Part shown: positions 29,128-55,801 of the stretch, piece by piece | Layout of the letters: each line of letters starts with the position of its first letter | Position numbering within the stretch: position 1 is the first letter of the stretch | Source: Berberis thunbergii | Lineage: Eukaryota; Streptophyta; Magnoliopsida; Ranunculales; Berberidaceae | Direction: 5' to 3' | DNA length: 64,000 bases | Assembly (NCBI GenBank): GCA_003290165.1 | Contig: QNQO01000558.1 | Location: 310,001-374,000 of the forward strand | Made by a program: the position numbers and the translations under genes | Notes under the pieces: generated by a model | What the model was told of the DNA's origin: nothing | The model's database searches: none | The model's input: only the letters and a program-made list of their open reading frames with translations

Positions 29128-31440
29128 AAGGAGCGTTCTTCCAACTTCGCAAGTACCAAATGAAACTCAATCCACAAAAATGTACCTTCGGGTTACAATC
29201 AGAAAAGATCGTAGGTTACAGTCAACAGAAGAGAAGTAGAAGCTTATTCAAAACATATTCAATTTATTTTCGACATGAGACCCCCACAAACATTAAAGAG
29301 GTTCAGAGCCTGACTAAAGGGTGGCAAGACTAAACAGGTTCATCTCCAAATCCTCATACATATGCCTCCACGTTTTCAAGATCCTGAAGGGGAACAAAGA
29401 ATTCCAATGGGAAGAGCAGTGTCAACAGGCCTTGCAAGATTTGAAGGCTTACATGGGAAGCAACAAGTTGTTCTCGAAACTCGTCCCGTGCGAGACGCTC
29501 GATCTATATCTCTCAGTCTCGAAGCATGCTATTATCTCAACTCTGGTCTGAGAAGAAAAATGGAAACATAAGCCCGCCTACTACATCAACAAGACATTTG
29601 ATAAGGCGGAGTCCAACTACCCTAACCTGTAAAACTAGCCTTAGCATTAGTAACTTCATCTAGAAAACTGAGGCCCTACTTCCAAACTCACATGATAATA
29701 GTCCCGACTGAGTACCCATTGCAAGTTGGTACTGCATAAGCCAAAGCTGTCAGGATGAATGGTTAAATGGTCATTAGATTTGGGACAATTTGACATCCAC
29801 TACGCTCCAAAAATGACCATAAGAGCACAAACACTGGCAGACTTCATCGCCGAGTTCACAGGAACATGAGACCCAAAGTTGAAAGATCGGCAAGGAAATG
29901 AGAATCCCGACTCCCCCCCCCCAACACAAGGATGGATCTTGTGATGTGATTGGTCATCCAACGTAAAGCGTAAAGGCTACGGATTTGGGGTCCTTATCCA
30001 CACCCCAGAAGGGGTCATCCTCAAGAAGATCATCAAATTTGGCTTTCTCGCCTCAAACAATGAGGCAAAATATGAAGCTCTCTTAGTCGGGCTAAAGCTA
30101 GCCAAAGGAATTAGAATAGAATAAATCACGGTGTTCAGCGACTCCCAATTGGTGGTCAATCAGGTGAACGGTGAGTTCGACGTTAAAGACCCTCAATGAT
30201 GGCCTATTGCTGAAAAACGAGAGATGCTAAAAAGGGGTTCAAACAAATACTACTTTGTCGTTGTTCCAGCACAGACAACCAAGAAGCTGATGATCTGGCT
30301 AGAGAATCCTCATCTGCAAAAAATGGCTCCTATACACTCATAGAGTTCAGGAGAAGTCGGCCTAGGAGAGATAAAGGATTCACAAAGCCTTATCTACAAG
30401 CGAGGAAACCAGCTGATGGACCCCTTAATCAGCTACATAAAAACTGGAGTCGTCCTGATAGAGAAGTTGGAGGCTCGAAAGCTTAAAAACAGTGTGGTAC
30501 GGTACACACTCCTCAACGACAAACTGTACAAAAGATCAGAAACTAGCCCTGTGCTCAAGTGCATGGCTCCACCGAGGCAGATTATGTCATCATGAGAAAT
30601 TCATGGAGGAATTTGTGAGAACCATCCTGGATGAAGGAATATAGCTCACAAAGCCCTCACACTAGGGTACTATTGGCCAAAGATGTAGCAAGAGGCCGAA
30701 AATCTAGTTCATAAATGCGATAAATGCTATAGGTAAGCCCCATACACACACATGCCTTCACAGAACCTGATTCCAATAACCAGTCCATGGCCCTTCCCAC
30801 AATAGGGGATGGTCATTATGAGCCCATTCCCCATCTTTGAGAAGCAGAAATTCCTCTTCATGGCTACTTCACCAAATGGGTGGAAGTCAAACCCCTCTCC
30901 AAGACAGAAGAAAATCAGATCAACAACTAATTTTAGAAATTTATTGTTTGTAGGTTTGGAATACCGGGGACCCTGGTTAGCGATAACGAGGAACAATTCG
31001 AAGAAAAAAGTTACAGAGATTTGCGTTGATCTGAATATCAGTCACTGCTACTCAACATTCGAGCACCCCCATTACAATGAACAGATAGAAGTCACCAATC
31101 AAACTATCCTGGATGCAATAAAGAGAAAACTCGAAGCCGCCAAAGAGCTCTGGGTCTCTAAACTTCCAGGCATCCTTTGGGTATACCATACCACAAAAGG
31201 ACTCCAATTGGAGAGACACCATTAGCCATGGCCTATGGTTCTGAGGCAATGGTTTCAGTATAACTAGGCATGTCTATGTTCAGAATCGATAAGTTCAGAC
31301 TTGATGACAATGATGAAGCACTAAGAATCGGACTAGAACTGCTAGAAGTGCAAAGAGATGAGGCTTCCACCAAATAACGACCTATAAGCAAAAGATGGCT
31401 CAAGACTATAATAAAAGGTCAAGCCTTAAGCATCAAAGTG
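29128..31440 (+). pseudogene. Tat-lineage gypsy pol, segment 3 (RNase H, second RNase H, integrase)
   Basis: QLRKYQMKLNPQKCTFGLQS ends RT. ILKGNKEFQWEEQCQQALQD starts the first RNase H, which ends LADFIAEF. A second, archaeal-type RNase H follows with FGFLASNNEAKYEALLVGLK and VFSDSQLVVNQVNGEF (about 30,050-30,180). This dual RNase H is diagnostic of the Tat lineage. Integrase has ALTLGYYWPKM and HKCDKCYR (zinc), then HPHYNEQIEVTNQTILDAIK and an LPGILWVYHTT block (31,060-31,200). Many stops and frameshifts; the core near 30,800-30,960 is eroded. Confidence 0.88.
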
Positions 31441-31493
31441 CCTTCAGCCACCACAATGGTGGTCCCTGGCTTAACCTTTTTTTTTGCAAACTC

Positions 31494-31865
31494 GAGATCA
31501 ACAAGATCAGTGATGACAAATCTGAACAAATCAGTATGGCACCGTCCATGTGGAAAGACGACAAGTTTTCCGTTAAACGAATATAACACAAAAGTTCTTC
31601 CTATCTAAGTAGAGCATCGAAAATGGTCACCGGCATAAGACCTCGACCACTTAACGATGCGCTTAGCCAGACGATGCTCAGGTTGGTGAAGCCCAACCAT
31701 AGGGCCAAACTAGCCTGATCGAGGAAGCTAGGCAGCCCCACGGCCTAGACACGAAGGTGGTTGGGGCTACCCCAACATGAGTTTGATTTGCTCCACCTAG
31801 ACTACTAAACAGGAGTAGTTGAAAGAATGAACCGAGAGAGACATCAATGACTTTAGATTGCTTGA
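31494..31865 (+). repeat. Tat-family LTR end, primer site and leader, copy 1
   Basis: Shares about 370 bp with 40,004-40,371. The LTR ends near ATCA (31,533), followed by a primer site and an untranslated leader that leads into a gag-like frame at 31,870. The LTR upstream is mostly lost: only a few dozen bases separate it from the integrase tail of the previous element. Confidence 0.7.
31537..31554 (+). promoter_or_regulatory. Tat-family primer binding site, copy 1
   Basis: TGGCACCGTCCATGTGGA resembles the Tat/Ogre-type site beginning TGGCGCCGTC. The sister site at 40,048 reads TGGCGTTGTCCATGGGGA. Confidence 0.6.
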
Positions 31866-31869
31866 AATC

Positions 31870-32185
31870 AGGGGAGGATCTCAGACTCGAGTGGACGCAT
31901 AAGAACACATCCAAGAAAGGTGAAATCCCCCCCCCCCCCCCCCCACCACCACCACCATAGAGGAACAAAGAGCTTGCTGAGAAGGAGGCGTAGGTGGATG
32001 AAAATACCACGGGGGTCACCTCCCAGAAATGAACAGGACTGTGATCCGATCTGGCATCTTATATGATCTCAATGTCCCTCCATTTTCGAAGGAGATCATG
32101 AACGCCCCACTACCAAAGAAGTAGGTTCCTCCAAAATTTGAATTCTATGATGGAACGTCAGATCATTGGCGTCACTACCACCACA
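31870..32185 (+). pseudogene. Tat-family Gag N-terminal fragment
   Basis: The frame YDLNVPPFSKEIMNAPLPKK, stop, VPPKFEFYDGTSDHW resembles the start of Tat-type Gag (plP-KFk-P-YDGt-DP). It follows the leader at the expected place. The frame carries an 18-base C homopolymer (31,927-31,944). It is cut by the CACTA element at 32,186. Confidence 0.6.
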
Positions 32186-32395
32186 CACTACACCAAAAGG
32201 CTTGATTAGCTACACAAAGATGGCCACGGCTCAAAACCGTTAGTTTATTTGCCACGGCCCAAAATCGTGGCTAGAGCCTAAAACCGTCACTACACCAAAA
32301 GGCTTGATTAGCTACACGGAGATGGCCACGGCTAAAAACCATTAGTTTATTTGCCACGGCCCAAAACCGTGGCTATAGCCTAAAACCGTGGCAAA
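32186..32395. repeat. Tandemly duplicated CACTA left terminus
   Basis: The terminal 102 bp (32,186-32,287) is repeated at 32,288-32,390, so the element has two CACTA ends in a row on this side. Either could be the active edge. Confidence 0.85.
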
Positions 32396-33494
32396 TGAAA
32401 ACGCTGTAAAAATCTTGGGTGGGCTTTTTGGTGCTCGCTTCTTTCCTCCCTCACAAACAAATTAAGGTTAAAAGAGCAGCTATGAAGAAGATGACTAAGG
32501 AAGATCTAATGAAAGAGGTTAGTACTTACCTATCTTCATTCCATGTCAAATTGCAGATCAAATAGTTTTATTGGAAATTTTTGTTATTGTTGGTTTACCT
32601 GAAACATGGTATCAAAGTCAATCTAGAAAAGGATCATTTCAAATTCAGATAAGAGTTACTTGTATCAGATCTGTTAAGTTATAGTAAAATTATGTATTCA
32701 ATGTTTGCATGTTCTTATTTTGTTATATTGAAAAACTAAAAGAGCAATCCCGGAAGAAAATGCAGAATGTAAGCAGTATACTTATGTTGAAAATATTATG
32801 TTTATGTTTTAAGTAAGATACTACATTCATATACCTTCACCCCCTGGAATCTTTCGAAGGAAGCCTTCCTATAGCATGCTAGACCCATTTTATCAACTTG
32901 TGTAGGTGCATCATATTTCAGCTTTGGAGTCGCATTGTTTGAATTAGTTTAGGGAAGAAAATGAATTGAGCTAGACACATAGTCCTATTGATCAGTAACC
33001 AAATTTTTTGTTAAATTTCTATTTGTGCTGAAAGTCTTAACATGGTTAGTGATAAAGTAAGTTGTGAATATTAGGATGGAATAAGGCAAATTTACTTATT
33101 GAAGTGTTGGATATACCAATTCCAAGTGTACACTGGGGTACCTTATATTCAGGGTTGAGTTATCAGGTTTAGCTAATTAACACAGACAAGGACAGGCTAA
33201 ATATTTTTTTATAATTTATTTGCATGATTTTGTTCCATGTTTTTCACATGAAATTTTATATTGCACAAGAAGATAAAATACATGTACGTTGCAGCTCATA
33301 CTTTTAACTTGGTAACTGTCATTACCTATTCAGCAATCTAGTAACAACTAACTTGTGTTTGTCACACAAATTTTGTAATCATTTTGCGCTAAGCTTATGT
33401 GTACTTAGAGCTAAGTTTCTTGAATGTGCACATGAAATTTGTTTAAGGGGACCAAAGAAGCACTCTGTTAACTTGTTTCTTTTCTGGTTTATAG

Positions 33495-33575
33495 GGAAGA
33501 CCTCTGATGGATGTAATTCTTATAGATTACAACTTGACAGACATGACTGGGCTTCAACTTCTCAAAAAATTGAAG
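33495..33575 (+). pseudogene. Response regulator receiver-domain exon (ARR-like)
   Basis: An 81-bp exon bounded by ATAG at the left and GTAAAC at the right reads GRPLMDVILIDYNL and TDMTGLQLLKKLK in 27 codons. This matches the receiver core of plant response regulators, where the aspartate of the DY pair accepts phosphate from a histidine phosphotransfer protein in cytokinin signalling. The exon edges sit where plant ARR genes are normally split. The usual DYCMPGMTG reads DYNLTDMTG, so it is diverged. No flanking ARR exons were found, so this is a captured fragment. Confidence 0.65.
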
Positions 33576-34579
33576 GTAAACATGTGGTTAGCCTTATCCA
33601 CATATCTGACAAAAATTTACCCATTAGAGGATATATATTTTCTTCAAATATTTGAATCAAATTGCCTGTAAAGATGAGGACTGAAGAGAATGGTATTGAT
33701 TAATTAGAAAATCAAATTTGATCTAAAAGAAATCTTCTTGTTGTCATCTTAAGTAAATTTTATGCAATCCTTAGTTTGAATCACTCCTTAGTTCAACAAC
33801 ACCATGTTAAGGAGATCCAAATGAGTAAAGATAAAGACACATCCTTCCAGCATCATTGCCAACTCATAGATTGCTGTGGTGGAGTCAAAGTTCCATATAG
33901 CTGTTGAATTCTGTTTCATTGATGAAGATCAATATTCTTCAGTTGTATGTACAGATAGAGAATAGTGAAGCTGGTAACCACGGTGGTAGTTTTGTTGTTT
34001 TTCGGAAATTTCAGCGTATTATACGTACACAGATAATAACTTGACAGAGAAATGGAATAGACCATTACAATGGTAATTGCCTTGTTATCAACAGTGAGAA
34101 TATCAGAGTTCTTTTCACTTTGTCAGACTGTTAATAAGGTTTGTGCGAAATAGTTAATCCTAGGAGATCTCATATGTACTTTGCTAATCATTGTCCCAAA
34201 GACATTAAAGTACTTAGCAGATAAACATCCCAACGTTTTGTAGGAAGACACATTGTTTCCGTCAGAATTTAGAAGTATGTTCAAGGCTGGACCTCTTCTC
34301 TTTTTCCTCCTTTTCACTCCTTGTACCAGTACCTCTGACTTCACTATGAGAAGCTCTTCTTCTATGGAGGAGAGTTTTTCAATTGAGGTGGTGTGATGGT
34401 AGCAATGGGGGAGTTGAAGTGGTGTGAATAAGAAACATTGAGGTTGAATTTCCATGTAATAGGACCTTTAAAATAAAACACTAGAGGTTGAATTTCCATA
34501 CACAAATTTTCCTGATACAAATGAGTTTTTATCATCTGAGTTTTTATCAGATGGAAACTGACATCCGTATATGTTGCAG

Positions 34580-34630
34580 GTTGCTGATCAGTTTTATAAC
34601 ATCTTGCACAAGTACTGTAACAAAGTTCAG
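34580..34630 (+). other. Exon-like segment, unidentified
   Basis: Fifty-one bases between GTTGCAG and GTATGT encode VADQFYNILHKYCNKVQ in an open phase-0 frame. Splice signals and amino-acid texture suggest an exon. I do not recognise the source gene. Confidence 0.35.
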
Positions 34631-34878
34631 GTATGTACTATCACTATGTGGATACCTTGAAATGTTCAATTCAAACCATCTTTTCACTCTTCTTAGGGTG
34701 TGTTTGGTTGCACCCATTCGATGTGAATAGGAATCCTCTTCCCACTTGGAATAGCATTTTGGGTGTTTGTTTGAGATTTTATTGGTGGGAACAAAACAAC
34801 TAAAACACTCCTTTGTGTTATTTGCTCTCCCTTTCTTCAGATTTTGACATTTTTGGACTCAATGTTTTGATGGTGTAG

Positions 34879-35135
34879 GTGTTTGGGTTTGCTGATTAGT
34901 ACAGAGGAGCTTATAGTAATGGCTTGAAGCCCTATGTGTGCCCATTCTACTGTTCTTACTCTGGTTATCAAGTAAGCAAATTTTACTTATTTTAGAACTT
35001 AATTTTTTGGTTCAGTTTCAGGGTGGATTTCTAATGGGTTTCAATTTGTTGTTCTAATTGAAGGATGAGTTGTTGTGGGGTGCTGCTTGGCTTCACAGAG
35101 CAACCAAAAACCCAACTTATCTCAACTACATTCAA
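34879..35135 (+). pseudogene. GH9 endoglucanase fragment, two exons
   Basis: Exon 1 (34,879-34,971) reads VFGFAD, stop, YRGAYSNGLKPYVCPFYCSY and SGYQ, ending at a GTAAGC donor. After a 92-bp intron ending TTGAAG, exon 2 (from 35,064) reads [20 protein letters not shown] and NYIQ. This is the conserved central block of plant family 9 glycosyl hydrolases (endo-1,4-beta-glucanases acting on cell-wall glucans). Both splice sites and phase are intact, but the in-frame TAG and the lack of all other exons make it a dead fragment. It lies within the CACTA element in the same orientation as the other captured pieces. Confidence 0.85.
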
Positions 35136-36507
35136 CCTAAATCATGTTTACCCAATAGCTGCAATATTATGTGAATTGTGTTTTGGTTTAGTCCTTGTTG
35201 GGTTGGGTGGTTTGGTGGTCAAATGGTATTTCTTCAACAATGGTGAACATGAAGAAGAGATAGAAGTTCATTCCAGATTGAACATGAAAATGAGGTGTTC
35301 TTAGTTTTTTAAATTTCTTCTCTTTTGAGTTTGATTTTTAGAGTTTTAATTATGATAGAGTATCTATAGATAGATGGATGAGCTCTTATGACTCTACAAG
35401 ACAAGTGGGGAAGTGAAGAAGGCAGAGAGAGAGTTCTAGCTTCTTTTGATGTTGAATTTGGATCTTTTTCACTGCTTTATTTAGTATGTTCCCATTGGGT
35501 TTAGAATAATTGTGAATTGGTTAGTAGTTTATTTTGGATAATTCAATGTGTGTTGTTATTGCATGATTTGATTTAACTCCAATCTTCATTCTGCATTTTG
35601 CAAATTTAGGAAAAAATTGAAGTACTAGAGAGTTAATTTTTTGAGAATGGTAGGATGATTTGGTTAGGGTAACAGCCAGCCAATTTAGTTTAATTTGTAT
35701 CGAAATAAACTACTTGGGTGGGTCGATGGGGTGAAGGATTGAGAGATTTGTACAAGGATCTTATTAAACTCTTGATTTCAGAGCTAAAAACCTGATCTTA
35801 AGAGTCGATTGGACTTAAAGCTAAAGGTATTTAATGTCGGATTTGGTAAAATTGGAGACCAAATTGGTGATATGTATAGGAGTATATGGATGTATGTCTG
35901 TGAATCTGTGAATCTTGGTTTTTTGTAGTATGTCACTGAATTTAATCTGTGATGTTGTAGCAGATCTTGGTTTTTTGCAACAGGAGAATTTTTGTAGTAG
36001 AGTTGTATGAAAAAACATACAACAAGAATGTTTATCTCCAACAAGATTTGCTACCATGTATGAAAAAACATCATTCACTGATGTATATTGCTAAGTGTAG
36101 AGTTGCTTTTATAGGTTGAAAATTTTAATAAGAAACAGATAGGCTGCAAAATCTAGAGCAACCAAGTTCTTCATTTCTCTTTTACTCTTGTTTCAGTTTT
36201 TCACTGTTTGGTTCTTCTCATTTACCATGCTTTTCTTCTTATTTCACTCACTCTTGTTTAGTAGTACACTCAGTGGACTTAATTGTGAAATATTGCTTGC
36301 AATCACCCTTGATTGCTTTCAGCCTAGGTATTACTGGGTAAGCAAGTCACTGTTCCATGCTCTGTTACTTGTTGCCCAATCAAATAGGAAATTGCGTGTT
36401 GGGGTTATTATGAACTCATGCTTGTATAAGTTCGGCATTGCTTAATTCTTGAATAGCAAATTTCTTGTCTTATGGCTTCTCAGACTAGGTCCTTTTGTGA
36501 ATTGCAG

Positions 36508-36561
36508 GAGTGGGTAGCAAACTTCGAGAAACTAAAGGGTGACCCATCTGCATTCTTGAAG
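36508..36561 (+). other. Exon-like segment, unidentified
   Basis: Fifty-four bases between TTGCAG and GTGTGT encode EWVANFEKLKGDPSAFLK. A possible 15-bp piece reading PRYYW (36,323-36,337, followed by GTAAGC) may precede it. Source gene unknown to me; likely another captured exon. Confidence 0.4.
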
Positions 36562-36942
36562 GTGTGTCTGGTCGATCAAGTTCAGTCGTAAGCATTCCAT
36601 CAAGTTCATGATAGTTTACTACCTAAATAAGTGAAAATAGTAGTTTCCTCAGTTAGCGGTGTATCTATATTCTGAGTTAAACTATGTACATTGCAAATGA
36701 AAAATCATTTATTTTCGACTCATTTCATTCCTTTTGTATTTTTGTCACAGTATTAGCGAATTGAATCCCCTGATTGTTTCAATTAAGTACAAAGATAAAA
36801 TAAAATCAACTAAAAACAGAGGGGAAAATGGACTTTATATCAGTGAACCTGAATATGTCTTTTGGTCTGACATCGCTTTGTCAAAATGCATGCCCATCCT
36901 GTGATACTGATACCTGATCGTTGACTTCCTTATTTGTTATAG

Positions 36943-37707
36943 ATCATTCCAAAATCTTGTTTCAACCGTTGATCCGGATACGCTCGCTGCTTTAAGTGGT
37001 GGAAGTACTGAAGGGATGTCACCAGACATGATGAAAATAGCTGCAAACATGATTGGCAAGATGCCACCGGATGAACTTCAAAAAATGCTCCAGATGGCTT
37101 CCTCTTTTCAAGGGAAAAATCCATTATTTCCTGCTGGGTTAGGGTCAACTGGCCAAATTTGAGGCCTGGAACCTTGCCAGAAGGCATGTCGCCCGACATG
37201 CTGAAGACTGCATCTGATATGATGAGCAAGATGACTCCTGAAGAGCTTCAGAAAATGTTTGAAATTGCCTCTAATTTGAGGGAGACAGACAATTCAAAAA
37301 CCTCAGGAGGCGGTGGAATTTCTGCAGTAAACAGGAATACTGATCCAGGTGAAAGTGGTTCCTCACGTGGGTTGTTCTCAAACTCAATGTCAGATCCATC
37401 TCCTTCAAATCTCCCGACCTCAAGTGCAGATCTTCAACAGCATATGCGCAACCAAATGAATGATCCGGCAATGCGTCAGGTATGCTGGAAATAAGCATAA
37501 GCTTCTTGCTTGAACTTAAGTTGTCTATTGTTTTTCTGACCTTCTGGAAGAATCATTTGCTAGATGTTCTCGTCCATGATTAAGAACATGAGCCCGGATA
37601 TGATGGCAAACATGAGTGAGCAGTTTGGAATCAAGATGTCGAAGGAAGAAGCAGCAAAAGCTCAACAAGCCATGTCCTCTTTATCACCAGATACCTTGGA
37701 TAGCATG
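36943..37707 (+). pseudogene. OEP61/TPR7 C-terminal exons, truncated
   Basis: Exon 1 (36,943-37,479) reads SFQNLVSTVDPDTLAALSGG, then MSPDMMKIAANMIGKMPPDE. After a one-base frame change near 37,150 it reads MSPDMLKTASDMMSKMTPEE and ends DLQQHMRNQMNDPAMRQ before GTATGC. Exon 2 (37,564-37,707) reads [20 protein letters not shown], then [20 protein letters not shown]. This is the MSPDM-repeat region of OEP61 (TPR7), a tail-anchored chloroplast-envelope/ER TPR receptor that binds Hsp70-delivered preproteins. The N-terminal TPR domain and the last exon with the membrane anchor are both absent; the copy ends at the donor GGTACTTG. The frame change and missing ends show it is a captured piece, not the functional gene. 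Confidence 0.85.
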
Positions 37708-37747
37708 GTACTTGCTAACCTATAAGCTGTTCTATATTTCCATGCCC

Positions 37748-37840
37748 CAATTCTAGCTGGCCTGGGAAAGGGAGCAAGGTTGCTGCCTGGGGGGGCGAAT
37801 GTACACTTTTGGCCCCCCTCTTTAACCACTTTTTTGGAAA
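37748..37840. repeat. Single arm of the AATTCTAGCTGGCC MITE
   Basis: AATTCTAGCTGGCCTGGGAAA, then the GCTGCCTGG and GGCCCCCCTCTTTAACCAC steps, follow the order of one arm of the MITE at 13,231-13,414. No opposite arm is present. Confidence 0.6.
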
Positions 37841-38699
37841 AAGAAATGAGCTGTCTGTTTTTTCTTTCTTTCTCATAGTTGCTACTAGTTATTAACACAT
37901 CCTTGTCTTGTCTTTCCTTGATATTCTTCTGTTCCATGCTCAGTTATGGTAACTAAATTGTCATCCCTGGTCAATGGTATAATTCATTTAAATTGTCATC
38001 CAAAATGATATAATTCGTTTAAGACAGTTTTGATTGCAATGAAAATTCTTTCCTTAATTCAATAATTACACTAGATTTGCACAATGCAAATCAAATCCAA
38101 ATGAAAGCCTAGACAAAGTAAAATAAATTACAAACATAACTTGCTTTCTCGATTACGCGAGAAATCTTCGTGTATTTTTTTATTTATTTATTATTATTTT
38201 TTTTGGGGGGGAGGGGGTACACGCCACATGGCAAGTGTCTGGTCGATCTTAGTAATGACTGATTTTGCAGATGTGGGGTTGTGATTTTGCTGCAGCAGCA
38301 AAAAAAATGTAATTTTTTTTCGATTATATTAATTTGCAACGGTTTCAAACCCTTGCAACAAACCATTTTTTTTTAACTGGCCACGGCTTAAAATCGTGGC
38401 CATTATGCTTGCAACGGCTATGAGACCAAAGAAATTCAAAATAAGTGATATATGTTGCCACGGTTATGGAACGTGGAGCATCTAGCCATGTCGGGTAGCC
38501 GTGGCTAAACCGTGGCTAAATGCAGAAAATCATCAAGTGTCCTCGAACATAAAACCGTTGCTAATATGTGTTGCCACGGTTTATAGCCATCAATTGTGAT
38601 TTGGCGACGCCTCAAATGGCCAGGCCTCTAAGCCGTGGCAATAGGTTACCCCCATGGTCCCAAACCGTTGCTGATGGGTATTTTTGGTGTAGTGATGTA

Positions 38700-39156
38700 A
38701 TGGCTCTAGGTCTTTAAACTTTCAGGCATCCTTTTGGCATACCATACCACAAAAAGGACTCTGACTGGAGAGACACCATTCACCCTGGCGTATGGGTCTG
38801 AAGCAATGGTTGCAGTATAATTAGGCATGCCTATGTTAAGAACCGATGAGTTTAGACTCGAGGACAATGATGAAGCGCTAAGAGTCGTACTAGATCTGCT
38901 CAAAGAGCGAAGAGACGAGGCTTCCGCCAAAATAGCGACCTATAAGCAAAAGATGGCCCAATACTATAACAAAAAGTTCAAGCCTCGAGAATTAAAGGTT
39001 TATGATTGGGTACTCAAAAACCCTACCAAACACCAAAACCTACGGGAAGGCAAGCTAAGCTCGAACTGGGAAGGCCCCTACAGGGTGACAACAATCAATA
39101 GGCCCGAAACCTATTGGCTAGATAACCCGAGTGGAAAGCGTCTAAAAAGACCATAG
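38700..39156 (+). pseudogene. Tat-family integrase C-terminus, second copy
   Basis: The plus strand reads LSGILLAYHTTKRTLTGETP and FTLAYGSEAMVAV. After a stop it reads LEDNDEALRVVLDLLKERRD, then KPRELKVYDWVLKNP and KLSSNWEGPYRVTTIN, the core-to-tail part of a Tat integrase. It duplicates 31,150-31,440 but is better preserved and extends further, to a stop at about 39,154. It resumes right after the CACTA right end. The pol region between this and the gag before the CACTA is missing. Confidence 0.85.
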
Positions 39157-40044
39157 ACTGTAGAGCACTAAAAGAAGTAGTATCAATAAAGGTACTCTCT
39201 TTAAATAATCCCATTTTGCATAACTCCATGCACATGAACAAGCCTAGTCCAACGAAGAGACTATAATGGCACACATGCAAATCGGACCCAGTCCATGGAC
39301 AGTTCACCATTGGCAAGCGAGCCTAGTACACAGACGGCACGCCGCATCCAATAGTTCAAGTCCACACAGACCAAACAACAATGAAGACCCAACTCGAAAG
39401 CTGGTCAAACTGTGGTACGAAATCTAGTTCTGTCGAATCAGAACAAATTCCCTTGGCACTTCAATACAGAATTGAGCCATACCAATCCATCCAGCGTCTA
39501 CTAACGAAAGCAGTCAAGGCCCAACCTGCTTGGGTAAAGATCATTTTTCAGCAACTTTATTCAAGGGGGAAGTTCCTTCATAGAGGGAATTGTGTCGAAA
39601 GGACTAGAGCAACACGCGCCCCTTTCGGACCAAGACAATTAAGTCCTTAAATATAGTTAAATCGTTTGGGGACCCATCTATTCAGGCAAATTGTACCATT
39701 TTAGCATATGAATATTGCTCACATGGACCAATATAATTTGTGTTCACTTTGAGCAAGCATGAAAAGAAAAAAACAACACAAATTCAAATGAAAAACCAAA
39801 CTTTATTCATTAATCAAAGTGTTGTTACAAAGCTTGATCGACTGATTGAATCAAAGTTTTACACACTTCAGGAATCTGAGCTTGGTGGAAAGGAAGGTGC
39901 AAGTGAAGATCTACCAGAACACATACTAGGTCTTTGCTCCACCAATCTGCCATCCAGAGGAGACTTCATGGATGAAGACAAGGAAGTAGCAATGGGGAAA
40001 GATCGAGATTAGTAAGATCAGTGAGGACATATATTAACGCATCA
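39157..40044 (+). other. Probable Tat-family 3' UTR and LTR
   Basis: It lies between an integrase tail and an LTR-end/primer site, so by position it should hold the 3' untranslated region and an LTR. No second full LTR copy in the window lets me fix the left edge. No gene recognised. Confidence 0.4.
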
Positions 40045-40371
40045 GTTTGGCGTTGTCCATGGGGAAAGATGACAAGTTTTCCATGAAACGAACATACAAA
40101 AGGTCTTCCTATCTAAATAGAGCATAGAAAATTGTTACCAGCATAAGATCTTGACTGCTTAATGATGCGCCGAGCCAGATGACGCTCTGGTTGGTGAAGC
40201 TCAACCATAGGGCCAAACTAACCCGATCAAGGAAGCTGGGCAGCCCCACTACCCAGACACAAAGGCGATCGAGGCTACCCCAACATGAGTTTGATTTTGC
40301 TCCACTTAGACTTCTTAGCTAGAGTGGTAGAAAGAATGAACCAAGAGAGGCATCAATGACCTTAGATTGGG
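40045..40371 (+). repeat. Tat-family primer site and leader, copy 2
   Basis: The primer site TGGCGTTGTCCATGGGGA (40,048-40,065) comes just after an LTR-type end ATCA. The leader matches copy 1 up to about 40,370 (CATCAATGACCTTAGATTG). No gag follows, so the element is cut off. Confidence 0.65.
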
Positions 40372-47539: not shown

Positions 47540-49530
47540 TGTCTGACAAACCAACATAGACTGTTAGGAAAGGCCAAAAGATGAGGTTTATATGGTAAGG
47601 AGACATGGTGGTGGAACGCTGATGTGCAACAAACCATTGCAAAAAAGAAAAGATGTTTTAAGGTGTGGCAAAAAGATAGGTGCCCTAGAGTCTTATGAGC
47701 TTTATAAGCAGGCTAAGAAGTTGAATAGTAAAGCAATAGGAGAAGCTAAGAAGAGAGCGTATGATGCTCTTTATAATAGGCTAGGTACAAAGGAAGGGGA
47801 GAATGATATTTTCAAGATAGCTAAAGCTAGAGAACAAAAAAACTAGGGACTTGAGTCATGTTAAGTGTGTTAAGCATGAGGATGGAAGAGTTTTAATGCA
47901 AGATAAAGCTATTTTAGATAGATGGAATGATTACTTTTGGAACCTACTCAATGGAACACATGTAGGGGAGTTAAACTTGGAGGGGTATGCTTCACAGGAA
48001 AGGAAAGATCTCGTGTTCCATCGCAGAATTAGTGCCACAGAAGTGAGAGAATCTTTAAAAAGAATGAAGACAGGGAAGGCCGTTGGACCGGATGATATAC
48101 CAATTGAAACATGAAAATGTCTGGGAGAAGTTGGGATTCAATGGCTAACTAAGCTCTTTAATAGGATTTTGGAAACTAGAAAAATGTCAGATTCATGGAG
48201 GCATTGCATTGTGGTACCAATTTATAAAAACAAAGGGGATATCCAGAATTGCTCGAACTATAGAGGGATAAAGCTTATGAGTCATACGATGAAACTTTGG
48301 GAGAAGGTTATAGAACGAAGACTTGGGAGTTTAACCACGGTTTCGGAGAATCAATTTGGATTTATGCCGGGTAGGTCTACTACGGAGGCCATCTTCCTGC
48401 TTAGGCAAACTATAGAAAAATATCGAGAGGCACGTAAGAGTTTGCATATGGTTTTTATTGATCTGGAGAAAACATATGATAGGGTCCTCAAGGAGTTAAT
48501 TTGGTGGGTGCTTGAAAGGAAGTAGTGTCTCAATGTTATGTCGATATCATTAAGGATATGTATGAAGGGGCTGTAACAAGTGTTCGCTCAGTAGGTGGGA
48601 TGTCTAGTGAATTTTCAGTGTCAGTAGGACTACATTAAGGGTCGGCGTTAAGTCCATATCTCTTTGCTTTGGTCATGGATGAGTTGATGAGACATCTGCA
48701 AGAAGATGTACCTAGGTGCATGTGTATTTGCAGATGATATTGTCTTAATGGATGAGACTAATACAAGTTTAAGTCAGAAATTAGTTAAGTGGCGGGAGGC
48801 TTTAGAGAGTAAAGGTTTTAGAATTATCCGTTCGAAGACGGAGTATCTAGTGTGCAACTTTGGTTGTGAACCAAGAGGGAGAAGTAATGCAATTGAGATC
48901 AAAGGTGTCGAGGTCCCGGAGTGTGAGGCTTTTCGATATCTAGGATCTATAATTCAAAAGAATGAGGCTATTGGAGAAGATATAGACATAGGATTAAAGC
49001 TGGTTGGTTGAAATGGAGAATGACGTCAGGAGTATTATGCGATAGAAGGATGCCTGCAAGGCTAAAAGGGAAATACTTTAAGACAATTGTTCGACCAGCC
49101 ATGTTATACGGTTCAGAATGTTGGGCTACTACGGGACAACATACGCCTATGACAATAGCAGAAATGCGTATGTTAAGGTGGATGTGTGATAAAACATGTA
49201 AGGATAAAATTAGAAATGAAAGAATTAGAAGATACTTAGTTGTAGCGCCCATATAGGACAAAATTAGATAAAAACGTTTAACTTGGTTTGGTCATGTGCG
49301 GAGGAGACCAAGCATGACGCCAATTAGAAAATGTCTAGATTGGCAAGTTAATGGAGGGTGTTGACGGAGGGGACGACCGTTGAAAACTTGGACGAAGGTG
49401 GTGAATGAAAATATCATTGTGCTTGGATTAAGCGATGATATGTGAGAAAATCGCATTGCTTGGAGAACCAAAATCCATGTAGTCGACCCCGAAAATCTCG
49501 GGAATGGGCTTTGATGATGATGATGATGAG
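47540..49530 (+). mobile_element. RTE-type LINE, 5'-truncated copy 1
   Basis: Encodes broken RT: RKMSDSWRHCIVVPIYKNKG, NQFGFMPGRSTTEAIFLLRQ, the active-site FADD at about 48,725, then a C-terminal PARLKGKYFKTIVRPAMLYG block. The 3' end is a run of TGA triplets (about 49,511-49,529), the typical RTE tail. The 5' end, including endonuclease, is missing. Compared with copy 2, 234 bp is deleted between two GTTAG repeats. The downstream flank (49,531-49,549) matches the upstream flank of copy 2. Confidence 0.92.
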
Positions 49531-53204: not shown

Positions 53205-55075
53205 GGGAAGTGTCTGACAAACCAACATAGATTGTTAGTTCTCGATTTTTGTCTTAAGGGTAGGGATCGTATTGCTATAGAATAGGTTAGACTGAGAATT
53301 AAGTGGTGGACCTTACAGGGAGATGTGTCCTAAAAATTTAGAAAGAATATTTTGGGTGGCCAGTCAGTTTCAGAGGGTTGGGAGGATCTAGAACCAAAGG
53401 ATAAGACTAGTAGCGCGGATCTGTTTGAACATTTGGCAAATTGAATAAGAAGATGTGCGAAGGAAGAGTTAGGAAAGGCCAAAAGAGGAGGTTTATATGG
53501 TAAGGAGACATGGTGGTGGAACGCTGATGTGCAACAAACCATTGCGAAAAATAAAAGATGCTTTAAGGTGTGGCAAAAAGATATGTGTATAGAGTCTTAT
53601 GAGCTTTATAGGCAAGCTAAGAAGTTGAGTAGTAAAGCAGTAGGGAAGCTAAGAAAAGAGCGTATGATGCTCTTAATAATAGGGCTAGGTACGAAGGAAG
53701 GGGAGAAGAATATTTTCAAGATAGCTAAAGCTAGATAACGAAAAACTAGGGACTTGAGTCATGTTAAATGTGTTAAGCATGAGGATGGAAAAATTTTAAT
53801 GCAGGACAAAGCTATTTTAGATGGAAGGATTACTTTTGGAACCTACTCAATGGAACACATGTAGGGAAGTTAAACTTGGAGAGGTATGCTTCACAGGAAG
53901 GGAGAGATCGCGTGTTCCATCGCAAAGTTAGTGCCACAGAAGTGAGAGAAGCTTTAAAAAGAATGAAGACATGGAAGGCCGTTGGACTGGATGATATACC
54001 AATTGAAGCATGAAAATGTCTGGGAGAAGTTGGGATTCAATGGCTAACTAAGCTCTTTAATAGGATTTTGAAAACTAGAAAAATGCCAGATTCATGGAGG
54101 CATAACATTGTGGTACCAATTTATAAGAACAAAGGGGATATCCAGAATTGCTCGAACTATAGAGGGATAAAGCTTATGAGTCATACGATGAAACTTTGGG
54201 AGAGGGTTATAGAACAAAGACTTAGGAGTTTAACCACGGTTTCGGAGAATCAATTTGGATTTATGCCGGGTAGGTCTACTACGGAGGCCATCTTCTTGCT
54301 TAGGCAAACTATAAAAAAATATCGAGAGGCACGTAAGAGTTTGCATATGATTTTTATTGATATGGAGAAAGCATATGATAGGGTCCCCAAGGAGTTAATT
54401 TGATGGGTGCTTGAAAGGAAGAAAGTGTATCAATGTTATGTCGATATCATTAAGGATATGTATGAAGGGGTTGTAACAAGTGTTCGCTCAGTAGGTGGGA
54501 TGTCTAGTGAATTTCCAGTGTCAGTAGGACTACATCAAGGGTAAGCGTTAAGTCCATATCTCTTTGCTTTGGTCATGGATGAGTTGACGAGACATCTGCA
54601 AAAAGATGTACCTAGGTGCATGTTATTTGCAGATGATATTGTCTTGATGGATGAGACTAGTGCAGGTTTCGGTCAGAAATTAGTTTAAGTGGCGGGAGGC
54701 TTTAGAAAGTAAAGGTTTTAGAATTAGCCGTTCGAAGACGGAGTATCTAGTGTGCAACTTTGGTTGTGAACCAAGAGGGAGAAGTAATGCAATTGAGATC
54801 GAAGGTGTAGAGGTCCTAGAGTGTGAGGCTTTTCGATATCTAGGATTTATAATTCAAAAGAATGGGGCTATTGGAGAAGATATAGACCATATGATTAAAG
54901 CTGGTTGGTTGAAATAGAGAATGGCGTCAGGAGTATTATGCGATAGAAGGATGCCTGCAAGGCTAAAAGGGAAATGTTTTAAGACAATTGTTCGACCAGC
55001 CATGCTATACGGTTCAGAATGTTGGGCTACTACGGGACAACATACGAATAGGATGGCAGTAGCAGAAATGCGTAT
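53205..55075 (+). pseudogene. RTE LINE reverse transcriptase
   Basis: WWWNADVQQTIAKNKRCFKV, then the RT core with RKMPDSWRHNIVVPIYKNKG, NYRGIKLMSHTMKLWERVIE, NQFGFMPGRSTTEAIFLLRQ, EKAYDRVPKELI and the catalytic [11 protein letters not shown] (about 54,625-54,657). At least five stops or frameshifts. The thumb and C-terminal part are present until the cut at 55,075. Confidence 0.92.
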
Positions 55076-55801
55076 GTCGTTCAATAACAATTTTATATTA
55101 TAAATATAATTTTTCATATGATAAATCCTAATCCTTTTCATGTCAGTGAACATGCTAATGATTTTTTTTTTCAATAAAACTAACAAATAGTAACTAAAAT
55201 TGGTCAATAACAATTAGCATAGGTGTTTTTTTTTTGGTAGTTCTTGTTGGTCATAAAATTATAAAATTAGATTTTCTATTTGTTTAGGAGGGTAAATATG
55301 TCATATAACCTTATGGATTAACTTGGGTTAATAAAAGAGTCATTGTTAGTCATAAAAGTAGGCACAAATTATTCATTAAATCAACTATAGTATCTAAATT
55401 GTCTATTTTGTTAAAAAAAAAAATAGATCCTAAAAGTCATTTTCCCAAGTGTTTTTATTCATTTAATTATTTATAATAAATATTTGAAATCCTTATGATA
55501 GAAACTTTGCGTGAAATGTTTGTTCCCACGTAATATCAATACCTCTCCAAGATTTTATAGTTCTTGTAATGCTAGAAAATAGAAAGGAAATGGGGAAATT
55601 TTGACCTTGAACGCCTACTTTTCTTCAAAATGACCATTAGGTACGATAGATGGGGAATTGGCTAATAAATACTATTTTTCATTGTTATGACCATTAAGAC
55701 TCAATTGTTTAACCATGGTTAGCAAAATATGTATTAAAAAAAAGAACCCATCTTAACCTTTGTAATTGTACAAATCTCGAGTACATGTCAAATTCATTTA
55801 A

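Follow-up and report, generated by a model that had tools for sequence, protein, structure and literature searches.

A non-autonomous CACTA element of Berberis thunbergii with fragments of five recognised host genes, probably collected in steps

Introduction

Transposons of the CACTA superfamily that carry pieces of host genes have been described in soybean, grapevine and other plants, and an element of this kind from Berberis thunbergii is the subject of this text. It occupies positions 32186-38694 (6509 bp) of a 64-kb stretch of DNA, here called the window, which corresponds to positions 310001-374000 of contig C558 (QNQO01000558.1) in a 2.24-Gb assembly that holds two haplotypes. Tgm-Express1 of soybean is a 5.7-kb CACTA element with fragments of five unrelated donors, the exons of which are spliced into a host transcript (PMC1947982). 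The Berberis element resembles it in size (6.5 kb), in the number of donors and in the introns and AG/GT borders that were kept, while its setting is different: Tgm-Express1 sits in the intron of a gene and its splicing is known, whereas the Berberis element lies in an old gypsy element and its exons are predicted ones. The Berberis family, for its part, includes several loci with other donors.

The Pack-CACTA and Pack-TYPE elements of Arabidopsis, rice and maize are also non-autonomous, contain host DNA and have relatives that differ by their internal pieces, although the PIF and Mariner examples described carry only one or two pieces of 58-280 bp, compared with several per element, some of them multi-exon, in the Berberis family (PMC8903248). 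Acquisition through the fusion of neighbouring elements has been proposed for such elements (PMC8903248; review PMC13317346). Cactavine of grapevine is likewise a CACTA element with transduplicated host sequence, but its captured pentatricopeptide repeat (PPR) piece runs opposite to the transposase frame, whereas no antisense piece was recognised in the Berberis family (PMC2528002).

The window element is a non-autonomous CACTA element of the Pack-CACTA type. In the reading preferred here, to which we give a probability of roughly 0.88, it belongs to a large CACTA family and has collected its host DNA in steps.

Ends of the element and size of the family

The terminal sequence CACTACACCAAAA occurs without mismatch (13 of 13 bases) at 32186 and 32288 on the plus strand and at 38682-38694 on the minus strand; seven further places in the window resemble it with two mismatches each. 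GCCACGG occurs 12 times in the 64-kb window, seven times on the plus and five times on the minus strand, and always inside the two termini; the shuffled-sequence control for this count gave a mean of 1.3 and a maximum of 5. The element thus has both the inverted repeats starting with CACTA and the subterminal repeats in both orientations that characterise the superfamily. Profile scans matched no transposase family in it on either strand. CACTA ends with subterminal units on both sides and the absence of a transposase had already been proposed in a first-pass annotation of the window, and both are borne out. Besides the missing transposase, the features of the Pack type that were found are related copies elsewhere and fragments with separate host loci, the latter for the OEP61 and photolyase pieces only.

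The left end is doubled by a tandem duplication of 102 bp (Table 1). The same duplication recurs in the relatives L012, L016, L017 and L032, and at least nine pairs of left-end 29-mer matches are spaced 102 bp apart among the matches listed. For this reason the idea that the doubled left end reflects two tandem elements was rejected, a decision that is silent on whether the far ends derive from two elements. At 32452|32453, about 870-1130 bp that are present in L012, L017, L020 and L021 are missing from the window copy.

When up to two mismatches are allowed, the two-haplotype assembly contains 4285 matches to the left-end 29-mer, some elements having two, and none to its reversed control. A DNA search with positions 33000-34500 returned at least 48 matches when the best 40 of 159 candidates were scored. 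The window and 20 fetched regions together include 11 distinct aligned loci with the response-regulator block, which are 2.07-4.63% apart (Jukes-Cantor, JC), and in a twelfth, L029, this block is joined to photolyase sequence. Related copies thus occur at other sites, with twelve distinct loci in all, though not all of them show both ends. Ten locus pairs align at 97.6-99.8% over most of the compared stretch; one of them is the window and L009, the other haplotype of the same site, which has identical flanks, is about 99% identical and contains about 573 bp of extra sequence near 36880.

Captured gene fragments

Five donors are recognised in the window copy, which are from left to right a response regulator, a Y-family (REV1-like) polymerase, a GH9 glucanase, a 6-4 photolyase and OEP61/TPR7 (Table 1). 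The first-pass annotation had named the response regulator, the GH9 endoglucanase and OEP61, all of which are present and read from left to right, and had left two exon-like pieces without a name, which correspond to the polymerase (34580-34630) and the photolyase (36508-36561). The polymerase assignment comes from joining the short exon at 34580-34630 to the next exon of L017; together the two match Y-family polymerases of the PDB (E 1.7e-4) and the human-type REV1 entry 3gqc (E 0.0012). The Pfam family IMS was matched at 13.7 bits in L017 and at 13.1 bits in L020, under its cut-off. For GH9, the two exon pieces joined score 47.2 bits with the Pfam family, and GH9 entries of the PDB are matched too. 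For the photolyase, the equivalent exon of L017 and the one after it match PDB entry 3fy4, a 6-4 photolyase, with an E-value of 6.4e-41. The last fragment we take to be OEP61, a name that comes from the first-pass annotation and that no search returned. The OEP61 pieces also gave matches to RPAP1_N (8.4 bits) and Skp1 (20.8 and 22.1 bits, against a cut-off of 22.3), which were put down to chance.

Table 1. Features of the window element (positions in the window) and composition of related loci
Feature	Position	Strand	Remarks
Left terminus, copy 1	32186..32287	+	CACTACACCAAAA plus GCCACGG subterminal units
Left terminus, copy 2	32288..32389	+	102-bp tandem duplication of copy 1, 94%
Remaining left subterminal block	32390..32452	+	
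Block with response-regulator fragment	32453..33733	+	Border 33733 also in L029, there joined to photolyase sequence
Response-regulator exon, 27 codons, open	33495..33575	+	Pfam Response_reg 20 bits, E 8e-4, under the curated threshold (30.2 bits)
Block with Y-family polymerase fragment	33724..34696	+	Common to repeat L030/L035, identical left border
Y-family polymerase (REV1-like) exon, 17 codons	34580..34630	+	
GH9 endoglucanase fragment	34789..35135	+	In-frame TAG 34897-34899
Block of unknown origin	35443..35816	.	Also elsewhere, including L034
6-4 photolyase (UVR3-type) fragment	36311..36560	+	Exon 36508-36561; 98.0% to gene-like L036
Filler DNA, photolyase|OEP61 junction	36561..36580	+	
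OEP61/TPR7 genomic fragment	36581..38198	+	Exons 36943-37479 and 37564-37707 plus introns; one-base deletion near 37155
Dispersed repeat of about 100 bp within OEP61 piece	37745..37843	.	Found in dozens of places; absent from parent locus
Right terminus with subterminal GCCACGG units	38215..38694	+	Ends TTTTGGTGTAGTG
L021			Response regulator, polymerase, GH9, longer photolyase block; same order as window copy; flanks tgg match
L017			Longer polymerase block, release-factor domain, photolyase; flanks tgg match
L012			Photolyase and LINE (long interspersed nuclear element)-like piece; flanks agg match
L020			Polymerase, release factor, peroxidase, DUF4005
L010, L013, L018			Proteasome-type ATPase; L018 additionally UFL1 and thiolase
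L032			GH9 and photolyase only; 20-bp right end; flanks tca/ggt mismatch

The combinations of donors differ among the relatives L010, L012, L013, L017, L018, L020, L021, L029 and L032, and the modular make-up of L010, L013, L017, L018, L020, L021, L029 and L032 supports a stepwise collection. At 33724-33733, the border between the response-regulator and polymerase pieces is also a block end in L029 on the response-regulator side and in L030/L035 on the polymerase side, which suggests that two pre-existing cargo blocks may have been joined here. A mosaic origin by recombination was considered from the identities of the modules and set aside, as these are not discriminating and the right end of L021 is the most diverged from all others. 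For UFL1_C, the whole stretch scores 24.8 bits against a cut-off of 24 and no single stretch passes alone. Not counted among the donors are DUF4283/zf-CCHC in L012, taken as a LINE insertion, and the weak sense matches to MgtE (15.1 bits, L010) and CytochromB561_N (13.3 and 15.0 bits, L017 and L021). Also left out is a piece of L017 which, by eye, we take to be helicase-like.

Donor loci elsewhere in the genome

The OEP61 parent was found on contig C871 (L031), with its other haplotype on C9243, at 96-98% identity to the window piece; against L031, the piece has 28 mismatches in 1512 aligned columns (JC 0.0188). By eye and with partial annotation, tetratricopeptide-like exons lie upstream in the parent and a membrane-anchor-like exon downstream. 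Further matches of this search, in which the best 40 of 1661 candidates were scored, included a paralogue of 90% identity (C6386/C161) and, on C6453/C169, two stretches of 169 bp with 83% identity. The dispersed repeat inside the window piece was inserted after the capture, as the parent does not contain it.

The photolyase parent lies on contig C987 (L036), where further photolyase exons follow downstream, and the window has retained 250 bp of it. Neither CACTACACC, GGTGTAGTG nor GCCACGG occurs in the 3.8 kb examined at this locus. Two of the three photolyase family matches of L036 contain one TAG, which in this partial annotation may be a read-through intron. Introns were kept in the captured pieces where this was checked, which indicates capture from genomic DNA.

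These two donors bear on whether the fragments could instead be an ordinary cluster of genes or an error of assembly. The splice-like borders would fit such a cluster and nothing beyond them does; the element is carried by both haplotypes with identical flanks, and the OEP61 and photolyase donors lie apart from the other pieces, on other contigs. We regard this possibility as practically negligible.

For the remaining pieces the picture is different, and several points weigh against a stepwise collection by one CACTA family. No donor gene was settled on for the response-regulator, polymerase and GH9 pieces, and the latter two also sit in other multi-copy repeats, from which they may be second-hand acquisitions. 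No left end of this family is visible in the fetched stretches of L010, L013, L018 and L029, and in L013 the right end was not seen either. Lastly, the window copy has no matching target duplication, and neither has L032. In the case of the response regulator, element copies occupy all 40 scored candidates, and no search aimed at the donor was made. The polymerase parent was not distinguishable in an IMS search with at least 208 matches (150 of 330 candidates scored), which were mostly near-identical repeats. Over its first 346 bases, the GH9 query has 97-99% matches at no fewer than 28 further places among the best 40 of 72 candidates; at one of these places, L033, the GH9 exons are longer and lack the TAG, a NAM domain is adjacent and DUF4283 lies nearby. 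Judging from these copies, the GH9 piece may have come via another repeat. Of the parental genes that the first-pass annotation suggested looking for, that of OEP61 was found and aligned with its introns, and that of GH9 was not identified among these candidates.

Fragments of Y-family polymerases (IMS) are amplified genome-wide far beyond the CACTA family, many of them in near-identical classes. L030/L035 is a separate multi-copy repeat with a polymerase block, and L030 also holds aldehyde dehydrogenase and RecA pieces (one strand scanned).

Origin of the window copy

Six distinct loci have both ends visible. Their 3-bp flanks match in L012, L017 and L021, agree in two of three bases in L028, and do not match in L032 and the window copy, where both this copy and its allele L009 have aca/atg. 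This implies that the window copy is not itself a clean insertion. A second irregularity is found at the photolyase|OEP61 junction, where 14 bp of the filler (36564-36577) are identical to 38235-38248 in the right terminus, a length that none of 2000 shuffled fillers reached (three reached 13 bp). As this filler was copied from the right end, the window copy was probably reshuffled locally. On its far side, the OEP61 piece is bordered by a T/G-rich run, at the point where the parent has a TTA microsatellite.

The flanks were identified by eye as gypsy gag on the left and integrase on the right, and similar blocks (83%) lie outside both ends of the element at 31492-31860 and 40003-40369. Apart from the allele, matches of the left flank are mostly at 69-85%, which marks the surrounding gypsy element as an old copy; part of it appears to be missing. 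In the stretches 30002-32185 and 38695-40369, two old gypsy units seem to share a tandem block, with the CACTA element inside the second unit. Elsewhere in the window, a 1.6-kb direct repeat (47563-49173 and 53468-55077, 94% identical) may represent the long terminal repeats of another element.

One explanation comes close to an even chance, namely that the window copy arose when a deletion fused two CACTA elements lying side by side in a single old gypsy element, the left one having contributed everything from the left end to the photolyase and the right one OEP61 and the right end, with the gypsy gag-pol between them lost. Fusion of neighbours is a published model for Pack-TYPE elements (PMC8903248) and would explain the mismatched flanks, the position of the filler exactly at the photolyase|OEP61 border, and the gag, integrase and outer 83% blocks, from which a few kb of one gypsy element seem to be missing. 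That gap, on the other hand, could predate the insertion, and no second element with OEP61 and a right end was found among the best 40 of the 1661 candidates: beyond the site and its allele, the OEP61 matches are the parent, the paralogue, the two 83% matches and copies of the 100-bp repeat.

A serious candidate as well, somewhat below even odds, is the addition of OEP61 to a single element by template switching during gap repair, with the flank mismatch arising from later mutation or an adjacent deletion. The 14-bp filler from the element's own right terminus fits template-switching repair synthesis, as does the position of OEP61 between a 20-bp filler and a T/G-rich run, but a separate event is required for the flank mismatch and the gypsy gap.

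Both routes are compatible with the stepwise collection preferred here. The element would have moved by means of a transposase supplied in trans, and donor DNA would have been taken up at the DNA level, either by template switching while transposon gaps were being repaired or through the fusion of adjacent elements. A local rearrangement as the last step may have brought in OEP61, leaving behind the 14-bp filler copied from the right end, at the expense of the target duplication. With 1.9% divergence from its parent compared with a family spread of 2.1-4.6%, the OEP61 piece looks somewhat younger than this spread, rough as the comparison is. The transduplication from several donors put forward in the first-pass annotation is therefore upheld by the separate OEP61 and photolyase loci and by L021, with its same order and target duplication; its assumption of a single element is less secure for the window copy, the ends of which may come from two.

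Coding state and expression

Six predicted exons (81, 51, 93, 54, 537 and 144 bp; 33495-37707) all have AG/GT borders and lengths that are multiples of three, although the 537-bp first OEP61 exon is so only through its base loss. The splice sites had been called working-looking, which is accurate for the borders of all six; the exons themselves are partly broken, and the donor site after the 54-bp photolyase exon is supplied by filler DNA and not by the photolyase gene. The in-frame TAG of the GH9 piece is common to the window copy, L009, L021 and L032 and is thus probably older than their spread; it is not found in L033. The middle OEP61 exon of the parent lies in one open stretch of 194 codons, and the window copy is frameshifted near 37155. 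Variable sites number 14 of 81 in the response-regulator exon and 212 of 1520 across the entire aligned block, so that the exon differs among copies as much as the sequence around it and shows no sign of constraint. In-silico splicing of the six exons gave a longest open stretch of 183 codons, which is wholly OEP61. Taken together, the GH9 stop, the OEP61 frameshift and the unconstrained response-regulator exon argue against a functional chimeric protein, and the cargo is probably decaying and without coding function as it stands.

The same observations make it improbable that a chimeric RNA is transcribed and spliced from the element, or that small RNAs derived from it target the donor genes. 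The sense orientation of all pieces, the AG/GT borders and the exon lengths would suit such expression, for which Tgm-Express1 provides the example (PMC1947982); the stop, the frameshift, the lack of constraint and the open stretch confined to OEP61 speak against it.

Orientation of the captured fragments

Across the family, all 11 recognised donors (response regulator, polymerase, GH9, photolyase, OEP61, release factor, peroxidase, DUF4005, proteasome-type ATPase, UFL1 and thiolase) are in sense orientation from left end to right end, as judged by Pfam scans and, for OEP61, comparison with the parent. Both strands were scanned for the window and the internal parts of L010, L012, L013, L017, L018, L020 and L021; part of L024 was scanned on the reverse strand only, and L030 and L033, which are other repeats, on one strand. 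The sole reverse-strand match, Herpes_PAP in L021 (12.8 bits, E 0.094), was put down to chance. If both strands were equally likely, the two-sided odds of 11 of 11 would be 0.001. The odds become 0.008 for the eight donors, all sense, in loci with a left end seen, 0.031 for the six, again all sense, that are above the Pfam cut-off or have a parent locus, and 0.125 for the four that satisfy both (GH9, photolyase, OEP61 and DUF4005). All these values assume independent captures, which may fail, and five of the 11 donors are under the Pfam cut-off.

That capture or retention in the family is directional, with every host fragment sense from left to right, is accordingly a tentative proposal that we consider doubtful; the three of 11 donors that come from loci without a visible left end weigh against it. 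Helitron captures are biased towards the sense orientation. This bias was not found in a passage of PMC3288121, and we found no paper on the sense orientation or orientation bias of transposon-captured gene fragments in the open-access literature, searched with limited wording. Tgm-Express1 has some of its open frames on the minus strand, and its pieces may therefore not all be sense (PMC1947982); together with the antisense PPR piece of grapevine, this shows that a sense rule does not hold for CACTA elements in general.

Implications

The kind of element described here is already known, and the notable part is the breadth of its donor sets together with their one-way direction. The case resolves stepwise capture from multiple donors through two donor loci, varied combinations among the relatives and the trace of a repair step in the junction filler. 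If the direction is real, surviving captures may have been filtered by transcription or splicing through the element, or by the avoidance of antisense RNA to the donors, and the CACTA family would act as a one-way exon collector. The same-strand order thereby makes it testable whether cut-and-paste elements capture at random, with transcription and silencing acting afterwards as the filter.

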